Below the pieces are notes generated by a model that had not been told where the DNA came from, searched no databases, and saw only the letters and a list, made by a program, of their open reading frames with translations. The position numbers were made by a program, and so were the translations under genes. A stretch of DNA of 64,000 bases, taken from Halothiobacillus diazotrophicus. GTDB lineage: Bacteria; Pseudomonadota; Gammaproteobacteria; Halothiobacillales; Halothiobacillaceae. Below are positions 54,846 through 64,000 of the stretch, in pieces. The stretch is taken from positions 1,995,001-2,059,000 of the forward strand of contig NZ_CP016027.1 in assembly GCF_001663815.1 (NCBI RefSeq), given 5' to 3'. Position 1 is the first letter of the stretch. Each line of letters begins with the position of its first letter.

Positions 54846-55877
54846 TCACACCTCGGGTTTTTCGGCAATCAGAATGGCCCGCAGCGGTGCGGGATAGCCT
54901 TCGATCGTCCTGCTTCGATCCTCCGGATCCAGAAAATCGACCAGGGATTGCCGGAAATCCGTCCAACGGGTCGCGCGCTGTTCTTCGAGGGACGTCGGTT
55001 CCTGATTCACCAGACGGATACGACGGTAACCCAGGCGGGTCAACCAGGTCGTCAAAAGCGGCACGCTGGGGATAAACCAGACATTGCGCATGGCCGCGTA
55101 ACGATCATAAGGGGTGAGTACCTGTTGCCCGTCCCCTTCGATCACGAGGGTTTCCAGGACCAGTTCGCCGCCGGGACGCAGACATTCCTGCAGTTCCCGC
55201 AAATGCCCCAGGGGATCGCGGCGGTGATAAAGCACGCCCATCGAAAAAACGGTATCGAACAGCGGCGCCCGGTCCAGTTGTTCCAGCGTCACGGGCAAGA
55301 GGGTTGCCCGGGCTTCATTCAGAAGATGGGCCACGGCGTGGAACTGCGCCACGAACGCCAAAGTGGGTTCCACGCCCACCGCGAATTCGGCACCCGCACC
55401 CAACATGCGCCACAGGTGGTAGCCACTGCCGGTACCGACATCGAGCACGAGTCGCCCGTGAAGATCGGCAAGATGATCCTTCAATCGATCCCATTTGAAA
55501 TCCGACCGCCACTCCGTATCGACATCCACGCCATAAAGGGAAAATGGCCCTTTGCGCCAGGGTGATAACGCGGCAAGTTGCTGTTCGAGCGCACTTGTGG
55601 AAATGGCCAAGACGCCGGCCGCCTCGATGGCGGATCGATCGAGTTGCACGTTCGCCTGTGGATCCGGCTCGGGCAGGTCATTGACGGTCTGCAGCCACTG
55701 CGACCAATGCCCGTGATTCAGTTCATCGAATACGCGGAGCTGCGGCAGCATCCATTGCGTCAGGGTTTCCCGACCTGATGCCCGTACCGATTCGACAAAG
55801 CGATCGATCTGGGTGGCCACACGACCCAGCTTCCGACGCTGGGCAAAATTGAACCGATGGTCGGTGTGCATCGTCAT
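54846..55877 (-). CDS. cmoB: tRNA U34 carboxymethyltransferase CmoB
   Basis: CmoB uses carboxy-S-adenosylmethionine from CmoA to make cmo5U34 in tRNA. The 343-residue protein has the SAM-fold motif VLDVGTGSGYHLWRMLG, FSMGVLYHRRDPLGHL and WTDFRQSLVDFLDPED, all typical of CmoB. It lies 2 bases after cmoA. The conserved VGCGSG of E. coli is VGTGSG here. Confidence 0.94.
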   Translation of the reverse strand: MTMHTDHRFNFAQRRKLGRVATQIDRFVESVRASGRETLTQWMLPQLRVFDELNHGHWSQWLQTVNDLPEPDPQANVQLDRSAIEAAGVLAISTSALEQQLAALSPWRKGPFSLYGVDVDTEWRSDFKWDRLKDHLADLHGRLVLDVGTGSGYHLWRMLGAGAEFAVGVEPTLAFVAQFHAVAHLLNEARATLLPVTLEQLDRAPLFDTVFSMGVLYHRRDPLGHLRELQECLRPGGELVLETLVIEGDGQQVLTPYDRYAAMRNVWFIPSVPLLTTWLTRLGYRRIRLVNQEPTSLEEQRATRWTDFRQSLVDFLDPEDRSRTIEGYPAPLRAILIAEKPEV

Positions 55878-55879
55878 GA

Positions 55880-56644
55880 TCAGTCCCGTATCGCCACCCA
55901 GGTTGAGAAGTTGTAGTGCTTGGCGATCAGGCCGATGTGCCTGAAACCGGCATCGACCAGACGTTGCGCGTGTTCGTCTTCGGTTTCGGTGATGAGCACG
56001 TTTTCCAGCGCCTGTCGTTTCTGCGCGATCTCCAGTTCGGAATAACCGTTGATGCGTTTGAATTCGTGGTGCAGTTCGGTCTGAAATTCCTGCATAGGCG
56101 AATCCGTTTCATGAGTCTTTTCGATCAGAAGCAAGGCGCCACCAGGATTGAGACCGTCGTGGATTTTTCGGATCAGCTCCGAGCGTTGTTCCGGTCGGAG
56201 GAACTGCAGGGTATAGGCGAGCACTACCAGAGAGGCGTTCTCGATGGGGGTCTGGGTCATGTCCTGGCAATGGAGCTGAATGTCCACCAGCGGGCGGAAT
56301 GCCGAAATATGAGTTCTAGCCCGATGAATCATTGCATCCGATGAATCCACGGCATGGATCACGACATTCCGGTCGACGAGTCCTGCAGCAACCACACCGG
56401 CACGAATGGCCATGGTAATTGACCCGAGTGAACATCCCAGGTCATAGACCTGGCTATTCGGTCGAACCCGATTTTTGGCCGTTGCGGTAATCGTCTTCAG
56501 GCAAAAATCATAACCGGGTACCGATCGTTCGATCATGTCGGGAAAGACGGCAGCGACTTCCTCGTTGAAACTGAAACTGCCGGGTTCGCGAATCTGCTCG
56601 AACAAGGTGTCCTTTTGCGTACCGGGTTTTGAATCGTGATTCAT
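55880..56644 (-). CDS. cmoA: Carboxy-S-adenosyl-L-methionine synthase CmoA
   Basis: CmoA makes carboxy-SAM from prephenate and SAM. The 254-residue protein has PGSFSFNEEVAAVFPDMIER, VYDLGCSLGSITMAI and VVLAYTLQFLRPEQR, as in E. coli CmoA (247). It is directly upstream of cmoB, with a 248-base DnaA-box-containing spacer before it. Confidence 0.95.
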   Translation of the reverse strand: MNHDSKPGTQKDTLFEQIREPGSFSFNEEVAAVFPDMIERSVPGYDFCLKTITATAKNRVRPNSQVYDLGCSLGSITMAIRAGVVAAGLVDRNVVIHAVDSSDAMIHRARTHISAFRPLVDIQLHCQDMTQTPIENASLVVLAYTLQFLRPEQRSELIRKIHDGLNPGGALLLIEKTHETDSPMQEFQTELHHEFKRINGYSELEIAQKRQALENVLITETEDEHAQRLVDAGFRHIGLIAKHYNFSTWVAIRD

Positions 56645-56892
56645 AGAAAGATGTTTTATTCAGTTGATCGTGTTGATAGTTAGCGTGGGCATTTTGGATG
56701 AAAACCCGGATTTTTCCTTACAGATGAAATGATTGTCCAAATACATCCTTGTTTGCGATTCCCATTCAGGGTTGTGGATAATATTGTGTGTATTGTGGAT
56801 AACATGGCCTTTTTCTTTTATCCACAGTTTCAGGACGCGTTATCCCGTCATTTGCCGAATAAGATGCTCGAGTACCACCAGAAATGAAGTCA
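56645..56892. other. DnaA-box cluster between cmoA and selU (possible replication origin)
   Basis: A 248-base spacer holding three perfect DnaA boxes: TGTGGATAA at 56773-56781 and 56794-56802 (21 bases apart, same orientation) and TTATCCACA at 56818-56826 (opposite). A partial TTATCC is near 56840. AT-rich segments lie on the cmoA side (56650-56720). It also must hold the cmoA promoter. Confidence 0.65.
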
Positions 56893-58032
56893 TCAGATGG
56901 ATCGATCGGTCGACGTGCTCGAAAATCCGCGTTCCATCAACCAGTTCGTTACTTCCGTCCGATCGCCTGAAAACAGGACATGTCCCTGCTTCTTGCTTAA
57001 TTGATAGTCGTACATCGGATCGTAATATTCCTGCAGCAACTTGCTGATGAGTTGTCTGAGACCGCCAAGTGCCCGCTGCTCGTAAAATTCGGTGAGCGCT
57101 TCGTTGGCAAGCCCCAGAAAGGCCTGATGCCGCACGCCACCCAACCGTTTCTGCACGCGATTCAGGGCATCCACGATGTGTTCCCGCAGCGCATGTTGTG
57201 CAGATGCCTCATCGGGCATGACCCGACGATAATCGCTCAGCATGCGCAATACATAGTCGTTGAGTGCCTGTTCGATCCGTTCGTCCAACGTGGACTCCAG
57301 CACGATCAGCGGTGCCTTGACCATGGCATGCCAGAGCGGTTCGACGATTCGACGACCCCCAATCTTGGCACTTTCATCCTCGATCAGGACGGGCGCGGTT
57401 GCGTCTTCCACCATGAAACGCATCAAGGCGATCGACAGTTCGTTATCGATACTGATCTGTGGCGGTTGCGGCTCCACTTCGCGGCCGAATGCCGATCCCT
57501 TGTGCTTGGCCAGACCCTCCAGATCGATGGATCGGGAAATCGTGTGCAGGAATTCCGTCTTGCCGACACCGGTTCTTCCACCGAGCCGAATCAATACCGC
57601 CTGGGGGGCATTCTGATTCATCTGATCGATGAGAAAACGACGCAGTCGCTTGTAGCCACCGACGATCCTGGGGATTTCGATTCCCGCTTCCTCTGCCAGC
57701 ATGCGTTGCGTCAGTCGAGAACGAAGCCCACCGCGAAAACAGTACAGCAAGGCATCGGGATGGGCTGCGATGTATGCGGTCCACTGTTCGATACGTCGCT
57801 GCTTTTCCGGTTCATCCACGAGCTGATAACCCCGTGCGATGGCGGCTTCCTGACCTTGTTGCTTGTAGGCGATGCCCACGAGGCGTCGTTCCTCGTCGGA
57901 TAGCAACGGAATGTTGGTGGCGTAGGGGAATGCCCCTTCGGAAAACTCGACGGGTGCGCGGACATCAAGCAGGGGACGCTGATCCAGGAATAGTCGGGCG
58001 TAATCCGACTCCGTGGGCAGTTTGCTGTTCAT
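56893..58032 (-). CDS. selU: tRNA 2-selenouridine synthase SelU/MnmH
   Basis: SelU replaces sulfur by selenium in mnm5s2U34 of tRNA using selenophosphate. The 379-residue protein has an N-terminal rhodanese domain with the key Cys98 in [11 protein letters not shown] (Cys97 in E. coli) and a P-loop domain with GRTGVGKT at residues 152-159. It overlaps selD by 4 bases (ATGA), so the selenium donor and user are coupled. Confidence 0.95.
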
Positions 58033-59096
58033 GAAGGATCCGATGCATCTGTTTTCAATCGGATCCAGGGCGTCTGGGCTTCGTGCGTTGTGAGTGTGCC
58101 GATGGGGTCAGCGTGACACTCGTGCTCGATCAGCAAGCGTCGGACCGATTCCGCCGATTCCGGACGAACGGCGATCAGCAGGCCGCCCGAAGTCTGCGGA
58201 TCACAGATCAAGGCACGTTGTTGTTCGGTCATGGTCGTCATGTACTGGCCATAGCTGGCGAAATTCCGGTTCGTCCCCCCCGGGATCTGGCTTTGTGCCA
58301 AGTATTTCGGTACGGATTCGATGACCGGTAGCCGGTCAAAGTCGATTTCCGCGGACAGTTGGCTGCCGCGACAGAGTTCGAGCAGGTGGCCACCCAGTCC
58401 GAACCCGGTTACGTCCGTCATGGCGGTGACGCCGTCCTGTTGTGCCAGGACGGCACCGACGCGATTCATGCGACACATCTGTTCCGGTGCGCGATGCTGA
58501 TCTTCCGTTGCGAGGATGCCGGATTTTTGGGCGGTTGTGAGGATGCCGACGCCCAGGGGTTTCGTAAGAAACAGGATGTCACCGGTTTGTGCCGTGTCAT
58601 TGCGTTTCAGTTGATCCAAGGCAACGCGTCCCGTCACGGCCAGACCGAAGATGGGTTCCGGCGCATCGATGGAATGCCCCCCAGCCAGAGGAATTCCTGC
58701 TTCCCGACAGGCAGCACGTCCGCCGTCGACGACCTGTGCCGCGGTGGCTGCATCCAGTTTGTCGATGGGCCATCCGAGGATGGCAATGGCCATCAACGGC
58801 GTGCCTCCCATGGCGTAAATGTCACTGATCGCGTTGGTGGCCGCGATCTGTCCAAAGGTGAAGGGATCATCCACGATGGGCATGAAAAAGTCCGTCGTGC
58901 TGATGATTCCGCTGCCGTCGCCCAGATCGTAGACGGCGGCATCGTCACGCGAATCGTTGCCGACGATGAGATGGGGATCTGTGGTGATCGGTGTCAAGGC
59001 ACTGACCAGGATCTGATCCAGCAGGGCCGGGGATATCTTGCATCCGCAACCGGCACCATGACTGTATTGGGTCAATCGAATCGTATCGTTGTTCAT
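58029..59096 (-). CDS. selD: Selenophosphate synthase SelD
   Basis: SelD makes selenophosphate from selenide and ATP. The 355-residue protein has the catalytic [11 protein letters not shown] with Cys17 and Lys20, then [11 protein letters not shown] and [10 protein letters not shown]. The essential residue is Cys, not Sec. It precedes selU, with which it overlaps. No selA or selB is in the window, so the visible use of selenium is tRNA modification. Confidence 0.96.
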
Positions 59097-59371
59097 GCGC
59101 GTGTCCTGTGCCGCGGGTTTTGGCTGTTCGCTTTCGGGCCGTGGCTATAGAGATATGTTTTTATTTCTGGTTAATGTGATGTTGATTAGCGTAGCCGATT
59201 GGATCGGCAACTCGGAATTCCTTCCATATTCTCTCAGCTTAGCGATTTTCGAGACGGTGGGTAATTTCCCTTTTCGGCTGTGGATTGTTTTGAGCGATGT
59301 GTGGATAAGTTCGGGTTTCCGAATGCTGCCCAGTTTTCTCAAGGATTGTCCACAGTGTTTACGGCGGCCGG
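59097..59371. other. selD-mnmE spacer with DnaA boxes
   Basis: 275 bases without a gene. One perfect DnaA box TGTGGATAA is at 59300-59308, a one-mismatch box TTGTCCACA at 59346-59354 and a weaker TGTGGATTG at 59280-59288. The selD promoter must lie here; no clear T-tailed terminator follows mnmE. Confidence 0.55.
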
Positions 59372-60724
59372 TTATTTGCCGATACAGAAGCTGCTGAAGA
59401 TGGTGCCCAACAAGTCGTCTGCGGTGAATTTCCCGGTAATTTCGTCGAGGGCCAATTGTGCCCGTCGCAAGGATTCGGCTGCGAGTTCTCCTGCCTGCCA
59501 TTTGTCGAGGGCCTGTAGGGCGGCGGTCACTTCCTGTTGTGCCTGACGAAGGGCATCCAGATGTCGTCGTCGGGCGATGAATTGTCCGCCTTCGCTTACC
59601 TGATAGCCCATGATCCGCTGCAACATGGCACGCAGTTCCCTGATGCCGGCACCGGTTTTTGCACTGATGCCGATCGTTTCCTGATCTTCGGGATCCAGCC
59701 CGGCGGAACGTCCGGTGAGATCGATCTTGTTGCGAATCCGGATCAGCGGTTTGGTGGGCAGTTGTGCGAGCGTTTGTTCATCCGCCTCGGTGATGCCGTA
59801 ACGGTCATCGATCATGAGCATGATGGCGTCAGCTGCGCGGATTTCCAGCCAGGCGCGGCGAATGCCTTCCTGTTCGATCGGATCGTCGCTCTGGCGGAGT
59901 CCGGCCGTATCGATGATATGAACGGGCATGCCGTCGATCTGGATCTCGGCACGCAGGACATCCCGTGTGGTACCCGGGATGTCGGTGACGATGGCGCGCT
60001 CGTCGCCGGACAACTGATTCAGCAGACTGGATTTGCCGGCATTCGGCTGACCGACGATGGCCACGCGCATGCCTTCCCGAAGCAACACCCCCTGACTGGT
60101 TTCAGCCATGAGGGTATCGAGCTGTTCCCGCAGGCGGCGGTTCTTCTCGATGATGCGGGTATCCGCCAGAAAATCGATTTCCTCCTCCGGGAAATCCAGG
60201 GCGGATTCAATATGCATCCGGAGTTCGATCAATGCCCGGGTGATTTCGTCGACCCGCTGGGAGAACGCCCCCTGCAGTGCGCGTGAAGCCGCCTGTGCCG
60301 CGGCCTGGCTACCGGCGTCGATGAGATCGGCCACGGCCTCTGCCTGCGCGAGGTCGATACGACCGTTGAGGAAGGCGCGTTCCGTGAATTCGCCGGGTCG
60401 GGCCAGACGTGCCCCAAGCGCCACCACGATCTGCAGCAGGGTATCGAGGACGACAGGTCCGCCGTGTCCCTGAAGTTCGACGATATCTTCGCCCGTATAG
60501 GAGTGCGGCGCGGCGAAGGCAAGACAGAGTCCGTCGTCGAGGGTCTCTCCGCTGTCCGGATGCCGGAACGACAGATGCCGTGCATAGCGGATCGGCGGCA
60601 GCTCGCCGACAATGCGCGTGGCCAGGGCATGTGCCTCGGGACCGGATATCCGAATGATGCCGACCCCGCCCTTTCCGGGCGCGGTGGCAATGGCGACGAT
60701 GGTATCGGCGGGGCTTTTCAGCAT
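59372..60724 (-). CDS. mnmE: tRNA modification GTPase MnmE
   Basis: MnmE binds 5-formyl-THF and GTP and works with MnmG on tRNA U34. The 450-residue protein has the N-terminal THF-binding domain (DTIVAIATAPGKGGVGIIRI), a helical domain, the GTPase domain with GQPNAGKS at residues 225-232, and the C-terminal catalytic motif CIGK as its last four residues. It follows yidC by 40 bases. Confidence 0.97.
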   Translation of the reverse strand: MLKSPADTIVAIATAPGKGGVGIIRISGPEAHALATRIVGELPPIRYARHLSFRHPDSGETLDDGLCLAFAAPHSYTGEDIVELQGHGGPVVLDTLLQIVVALGARLARPGEFTERAFLNGRIDLAQAEAVADLIDAGSQAAAQAASRALQGAFSQRVDEITRALIELRMHIESALDFPEEEIDFLADTRIIEKNRRLREQLDTLMAETSQGVLLREGMRVAIVGQPNAGKSSLLNQLSGDERAIVTDIPGTTRDVLRAEIQIDGMPVHIIDTAGLRQSDDPIEQEGIRRAWLEIRAADAIMLMIDDRYGITEADEQTLAQLPTKPLIRIRNKIDLTGRSAGLDPEDQETIGISAKTGAGIRELRAMLQRIMGYQVSEGGQFIARRRHLDALRQAQQEVTAALQALDKWQAGELAAESLRRAQLALDEITGKFTADDLLGTIFSSFCIGK

Positions 60725-63705: not shown

Positions 63706-64000
63706 ATGTCAACGAACACTCTAGAACTTTGGCAGCGATGTGTTGAGCGCCTGTCTGCGGACCTGACGGCGCAGCAGATCAATACCTGGATCCGGCCGCT
63801 TCAGCCGGAATCCGCCGATGCGAATCATCTGATTCTCTGGGCGCCAAATCGTTTCGTACTGGATTGGGTCGCCCAGAAGTTGCAGGGCCAGATTCTCGGT
63901 TATGCGCGTGAGCTCGACGCGAATCCCGAACTGGTCATCAGTCTTCAGGTCGGAAGTGCACAAGCGAAGGCGGTGGCTCAGCCGTCCCCGCGCGTGTCCT
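63706..64000 (+). CDS. dnaA: Chromosomal replication initiator DnaA, N-terminal part
   Basis: DnaA opens the replication origin. The first 98 codons are present: domain I (MSTNTLELWQRCVERLSADL, then QQINTWIRPLQPE and LILWAPNRFVLDWV) and the start of the variable linker domain II. The gene runs off the window; the ATPase and DNA-binding domains are outside. Confidence 0.95.
   Translation, partial: MSTNTLELWQRCVERLSADLTAQQINTWIRPLQPESADANHLILWAPNRFVLDWVAQKLQGQILGYARELDANPELVISLQVGSAQAKAVAQPSPRVS

Follow-up and report, generated by a model that had tools for sequence, protein, structure and literature searches.

Does the cluster of DnaA boxes in the spacer between cmoA and selU of Halothiobacillus diazotrophicus mark the chromosomal replication origin, or is it a site at which DnaA is titrated? 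Both roles were proposed in a sequence-only reading of the 64,000-nucleotide stretch of DNA analysed here (the window), which covers contig positions 1995001-2059000 of a closed, single-contig genome of 2,908,964 bp. Coordinates of the relevant features are listed in Table 1, where the cmoA-proximal module is designated copy A, and a second module, near mnmE, is designated copy B.

A DnaA-box cluster and DnaA-trios beside cmoA

The window contains four perfect matches to the DnaA box TTATCCACA, three of which are in the cmoA-selU spacer, exactly where the sequence-only reading had placed them. Its contention that three boxes so close together are far above chance is borne out by dinucleotide shuffles of the window, which contain a mean of 0.23 perfect boxes per 64 kb and never four. 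The genome-wide count that it suggested as a check is less striking, with 14 perfect boxes versus 13 in a reversed control, so that it is the clustering, not the overall number, that is unusual. The spacer, bounded by the start of cmoA (56644) and the end of selU (56893), is noncoding and as AT-rich as had been described, with a G+C content of 39.5% where the region as a whole has 60.4%; in 73 kb, only one 200-bp duplex is weaker. Copy A therefore has the at least three intergenic DnaA boxes and the adjoining AT-rich, easily melted element expected of an oriC.

Table 1. Features of the two modules and their neighbours, in window coordinates.
Feature	Position	Strand	Remarks
cmoA, downstream neighbour of copy A	55880..56644	-	
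Copy A, DnaA-trio array AAC TAT CAA CAC GAT CAA CTG AAT AAA ACA T; predicted unwinding element	56651..56681	-	NAN pattern; abuts cmoA start codon
Copy A, weak DnaA box TCATCCAAA, 11 bp ahead of trio array	56693..56701	-	Published BUS rules
Copy A, trio-proximal tandem member, perfect DnaA box	56773..56781	-	Register -118 from trio anchor
Copy A, second tandem member, perfect DnaA box, 21 bp from the first	56794..56802	-	Register -139; best tandem pair of the genome
Copy A, perfect DnaA box in inverted orientation, 24 bp off the tandem pair	56818..56826	+	24-bp offset shared with G005 and G008
selU (tRNA 2-selenouridine synthase), flanked by copies A and B	56893..58032	-	Order kept in relatives
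selD, between copies A and B	58029..59096	-	Copy B lies upstream
Copy B, DnaA-trio array AAT CAA CAT CAC ATT AAC CAG AAA TAA AAA CAT	59155..59187	-	
Copy B, trio-proximal tandem member, degenerate DnaA box CAATCCACA	59279..59287	-	
Copy B, second tandem member, perfect DnaA box	59300..59308	-	
Copy B, inverted DnaA box TTGTCCACA	59346..59354	+	Conserved in G005, G001 and G009 at 36-46 bp offset
mnmE, right-hand neighbour of copy B	59372..60724	-	
dnaA, running on outside the window to 65103	63706..64000	+	dnaN-side spacer about 43 bp, without a box

Read in the sense of cmoA, copy A (approximately 56645-56830) is organized as TGTGGATAA, 15 bp, TTATCCACA, 12 bp, TTATCCACA, about 90 bp of AT-rich DNA, and AACTATCAACACGATCAACTGAATAAAACAT beside the cmoA start codon. 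The last of these elements is a series of triplets with a middle A, matching the published pattern of DnaA-trios, the repeated NAN triplets that follow a box on the same strand in the basal unwinding system (BUS) of B. subtilis and most bacteria (PMC8287927). When 73 kb are searched with the published BUS rules (a box with at most two mismatches, a spacer of at most 16 bp, and NAN repeated in at least three triplets; PMC8287927), only two matches with six or more trios are found, at 56693 (-) in copy A and at 59180 (-) in copy B. The copy A match is made through the box TCATCCAAA, which is weak and not conserved in relatives, an 11-bp spacer, and six uninterrupted trios, compared to ten in the same place in four relatives (G003, G004, G005 and G006). 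Trio runs have 9-13 NAN units in most copies of the module, against 800 kb of background in which only 15 runs reach nine units. Copy A is thus like the BUS in having a box followed by NAN triplets on the same strand, but unlike it in that every strong box is more than about 16 bp away from the trios; the perfect tandem boxes begin 100 and 121 bp ahead of the trio run.

The E. coli oriC has an AT-rich side with 13-mers, followed by oriented boxes with an opposed distal box. Copy A shares with it the AT-rich unwinding side, the boxes facing one way with the distal one opposed, and a location away from dnaA (PMC5742627), but differs in its neighbours, in having trios rather than 13-mers, in its span of about 180 bp, and in lacking a consistent IHF site. 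No IHF consensus match with one mismatch or fewer is present in copy A, and a bend made by IHF in the DNA that separates boxes from trios was dropped as a component for want of a consistent site. In datA, for comparison, the boxes surround an IHF site and the locus is dispensable for initiation. An Rfam search of the window gave no match.

These elements suggest a mechanism in which DnaA would bind the three strong boxes of copy A, with the tandem pair two helical turns apart and hence exposed on the same side of the helix. The approximately 90 bp of weak AT-rich duplex up to the trio array would then be spanned by a DnaA filament or by a bend in the DNA, and the array would melt beside cmoA and permit the loading of DnaB.

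A second copy of the module and its distribution in Halothiobacillus

The fourth perfect box in the window belongs to a second copy of the module, a relationship that the sequence-only reading missed. Copy B (approximately 59155-59354) is in the selD-mnmE spacer about 2.5 kb from copy A and in the same orientation; the neighbouring MnmE has 82% identity to its best named relative, from Halothiobacillus sp. LH_M7. A whole-genome search for the 21-bp tandem pair allowing up to three mismatches finds it at three places in 2.9 Mb (copy A with none, copy B with two, and one further site with three), and at no place in the reversed control. If the positions of the tandem boxes are counted from a set point within the trio array (the register; in this copy B the count starts at its CAG triplet), both copies in this genome have the register -139/-118. 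The spacers between boxes and trios have a low A-to-B identity (0.43 in this genome), and the paralogy is therefore argued from motif, spacing and orientation, not from overall identity.

Among ten Halothiobacillus genomes, copy B is present in nine (all but G008), copy A in seven, and both in six; the three without copy A (G001, G002 and G009) have copy B only. The register is conserved at -140/-119 in the A copies of G003, G004 and G006 and in the B copies of G001, G002 and G009. There are departures from the full arrangement: in G007 a single recognisable box of the tandem pair is left in each copy, and some B copies (G003, G004 and G006) retain the outer box together with another box 43 bp away instead. 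The exceptional G008 has one module directly between mnmE and cmoA (G008:C127:8000-11039) with selU and selD absent there, as expected if A and B had recombined as direct repeats. The DnaA tree is compatible with either a single gain of copy A or its loss in the B-only clade. In the 2,582,886-bp genome of G009, we note that about 11.5 kb of extra DNA (C1:2567217-2578718), beside the origin module, separates selD and copy B from mnmE.

The dnaA-dnaN spacer and GC skew

The dnaA gene begins 6.9 kb from the copy A cluster, close to the 7 kb first given. In nine Halothiobacillus genomes the dnaA-dnaN spacer is only 39-69 bp long, and it is 202 bp in G003; no box with one mismatch or fewer is found in this spacer in any of the ten genomes. 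The other genera of the family have a dnaA-dnaN spacer of 269-311 bp in which boxes are present, with trios in most. In the sister genus Guyparkeria and genomes of its type (G012 and G014) this spacer includes a 21-bp tandem pair, and the trios read CAT CAT CAT CAA CAG AAT AAA AAC (Guyparkeria sp. WRN-7 is a named example). The architecture is homologous to that of the Halothiobacillus modules, with opposed boxes followed by NAN trios in Guyparkeria and also in other families of the class and, in Guyparkeria, the tandem pair in a register of -141/-120 versus -140/-119; the difference is that these have one copy at dnaA-dnaN, whereas in Halothiobacillus that spacer has collapsed and the module is found at cmoA and selD. 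In the simplest account of these sequence comparisons, the module would have left the dnaA-dnaN spacer in the Halothiobacillus ancestor, moving 7-8 kb within the family.

An alternative for copy B is that it descends from the cluster that relatives in Pseudomonas and Marinomonas commonly carry beside mnmE, but in Guyparkeria no such cluster is seen there. Many gammaproteobacterial mnmE loci have one cluster of DnaA boxes towards dnaA and another just downstream of mnmE. In G026, a member of another family, the dnaA-dnaN spacer is only 20 bp long and free of boxes, and two closely spaced, opposed boxes are located about 110 kb from dnaA (C6:34131), possibly representing another relocated origin.

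The rpmH-dnaA and dnaA-dnaN spacers were also considered as the origin of this genome and set aside, as both lack boxes. No other box cluster of the copy A or copy B kind is present near dnaA or elsewhere in the genome.

Genome-scale GC skew, another check that had been called for, was computed for 40 sample segments, each 10 kb long. It changes sign at this region, between the 2.025 and 2.100 Mb samples (near 2.05 Mb), a coarse-scale switch of the kind expected at an oriC that leaves A, B and dnaA inseparable. The local skew minimum is at window position 55532. In five genomes with copy A the minimum lies 0.5-1.1 kb left of the cmoA start, and it is 1.6 kb to the right of the cmoA start, beside copy B, in two genomes without it. 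These fine-scale values were dropped as a means of choosing A over B, because selD and mnmE have the same positive third-position skew in Guyparkeria, where the boxes are at dnaA-dnaN, and gene composition alone can therefore give such values. With an origin here, the rightward fork would also meet rnpA, yidC and mnmE head-on, an unusual and puzzling arrangement.

Origin, titration site or promoter

Because a trio array follows the box cluster, the architecture of the sister genus agrees to within 2-3 bp, the skew changes sign, and there is no rival cluster, we consider it very probable that copy A is the DnaA-assembly half of oriC, that copy B is its paralogue, and that the module moved from dnaA-dnaN and was doubled in part of the genus. 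We infer that DnaA binds here, that the DNA melts and replication initiates, and that the use made of copy A equals or exceeds that of copy B. As to the two roles initially proposed, the trios, the sister-genus architecture and the skew switch strengthen the case for oriC, and the titration role has lost ground to a cluster at 842 kb that fits it much better.

It would be surprising if copy A proved to be a DnaA titration site of the datA or DARS type, with the true oriC elsewhere. The resemblance is that its three strong boxes have one opposed to two, as in E. coli DARS1 and DARS2, whose core comprises an opposed box I followed by boxes II and III (PMC5742627) in the geometry box I > 5 bp < box II 3 bp < box III. 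In our E. coli DNA control, DARS1 is TTATCCACT-N5-TGTGGATAA-N3-TGTGTATTA, and a weaker core is seen in the rppH-mutH interval. Copy A has the opposite facing and a different spacing, reading < 12 bp < 15 bp > on the + strand, and was rejected as a DARS on this geometry: the TTAT ends of its boxes face each other with 15 bp between them and trios follow, whereas it is the CACA ends that face each other in the DARS core. There is no >N5< box pair in the window, the DARS-type core sits elsewhere in the genome, and the surroundings of dnaA yielded no competing candidate for the origin. A DnaA-regulated promoter, with the boxes and the conserved AT-rich element controlling transcription of cmoA and selD, is similarly hard to credit. 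Each copy is directly upstream of a same-strand gene and the copy A element ends at the start codon, but the same layout is found upstream of another gene in the Guyparkeria dnaA-dnaN spacer, the conserved element is an array of NAN triplets, and loss of the dnaA-dnaN module coincides with the presence of this one.

As for the relative roles of the two copies, an origin at the mnmE-proximal copy B, with copy A a relic that has kept its boxes, would accord with the wider distribution of copy B, and with the three B-only genomes, two of which have their skew minimum beside it. We nonetheless think it improbable, as copy A of this genome has the better boxes, the weaker duplex and the better BUS match, and its spacing is kept exactly in two or more lineages of the genus. 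A bipartite or twin origin, in which A and B would both bind DnaA and contribute to initiation, either as one orisome over selU-selD or as two independently firing origins, is a plausible reading to which we give somewhat less than an even chance. Two clusters with identical layout are seen, and their spacing in this genome is identical; copy B keeps its box, spacing and trios in every genome of the genus but G008, even beside copy A, and is not visibly decaying; and two box clusters are likewise present at many gammaproteobacterial mnmE loci. On the other side, one of the tandem boxes in copy B of this genome is degenerate, the trio run of that copy is interrupted, and skew is unable to tell A from B. 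Bipartite or double origins have been described in H. pylori and B. subtilis, as two ARS in Pseudomonas, and as predicted double oriCs (PMC4403523). These are similar in that two clusters of boxes lie no more than a few kb apart near a skew switch, but here both copies have boxes and trios with the same spacing and orientation, and they flank selU-selD rather than dnaA. The same review finds no evidence of two functional origins in use on one bacterial chromosome (PMC4403523). It is conceivable, if rather unlikely, that, after the exit from dnaA-dnaN, two complete same-orientation modules 2.5 kb apart arose that are both competent for initiation; recombination between these direct repeats may also delete selU-selD.

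The 842-kb cluster is in the spacer between a gene for an EVE-domain protein and ilvA (about 930 bp; 841731-842516 of the contig), and contains four perfect boxes and two >N5< head-to-head pairs like that of E. coli DARS1, making it a candidate DARS. Equivalent clusters are present in the EVE/ilvA spacer of all six relatives looked at (G001, G003, G004, G006, G007 and G009). A class-wide search for the strict core TTATCCACA-N5-TGTGGATAA-N3-TGTG picks out 138 of 369 gammaproteobacterial genomes, a count that takes in any inside oriC, with no reversed-control matches; this strict form misses the slightly degenerate 842-kb copy of this genome. These matches suggest that DARS-type sites occur far outside the enterobacteria.

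Our literature search found no description of origin relocation or doubling of this kind, and what it yielded for H. neapolitanus was limited to an origin predicted by Ori-Finder near parAB (PMC10241942). Relocation of an origin is usually inferred between distant groups, but here it is visible inside one family, with the module almost base-exact before and after. The unit that appears to have travelled consists of the opposed box, the tandem pair with its 21-bp spacing, an arm of constant length (about 100 bp) and the trios. The distance that it conserves from the strong boxes to the trios is at odds with the 16-bp limit applied in searches for unwinding elements. With genomes that have A and B, B only, or a single fused copy, these cultivable sulfur bacteria make the two-origin question directly testable.
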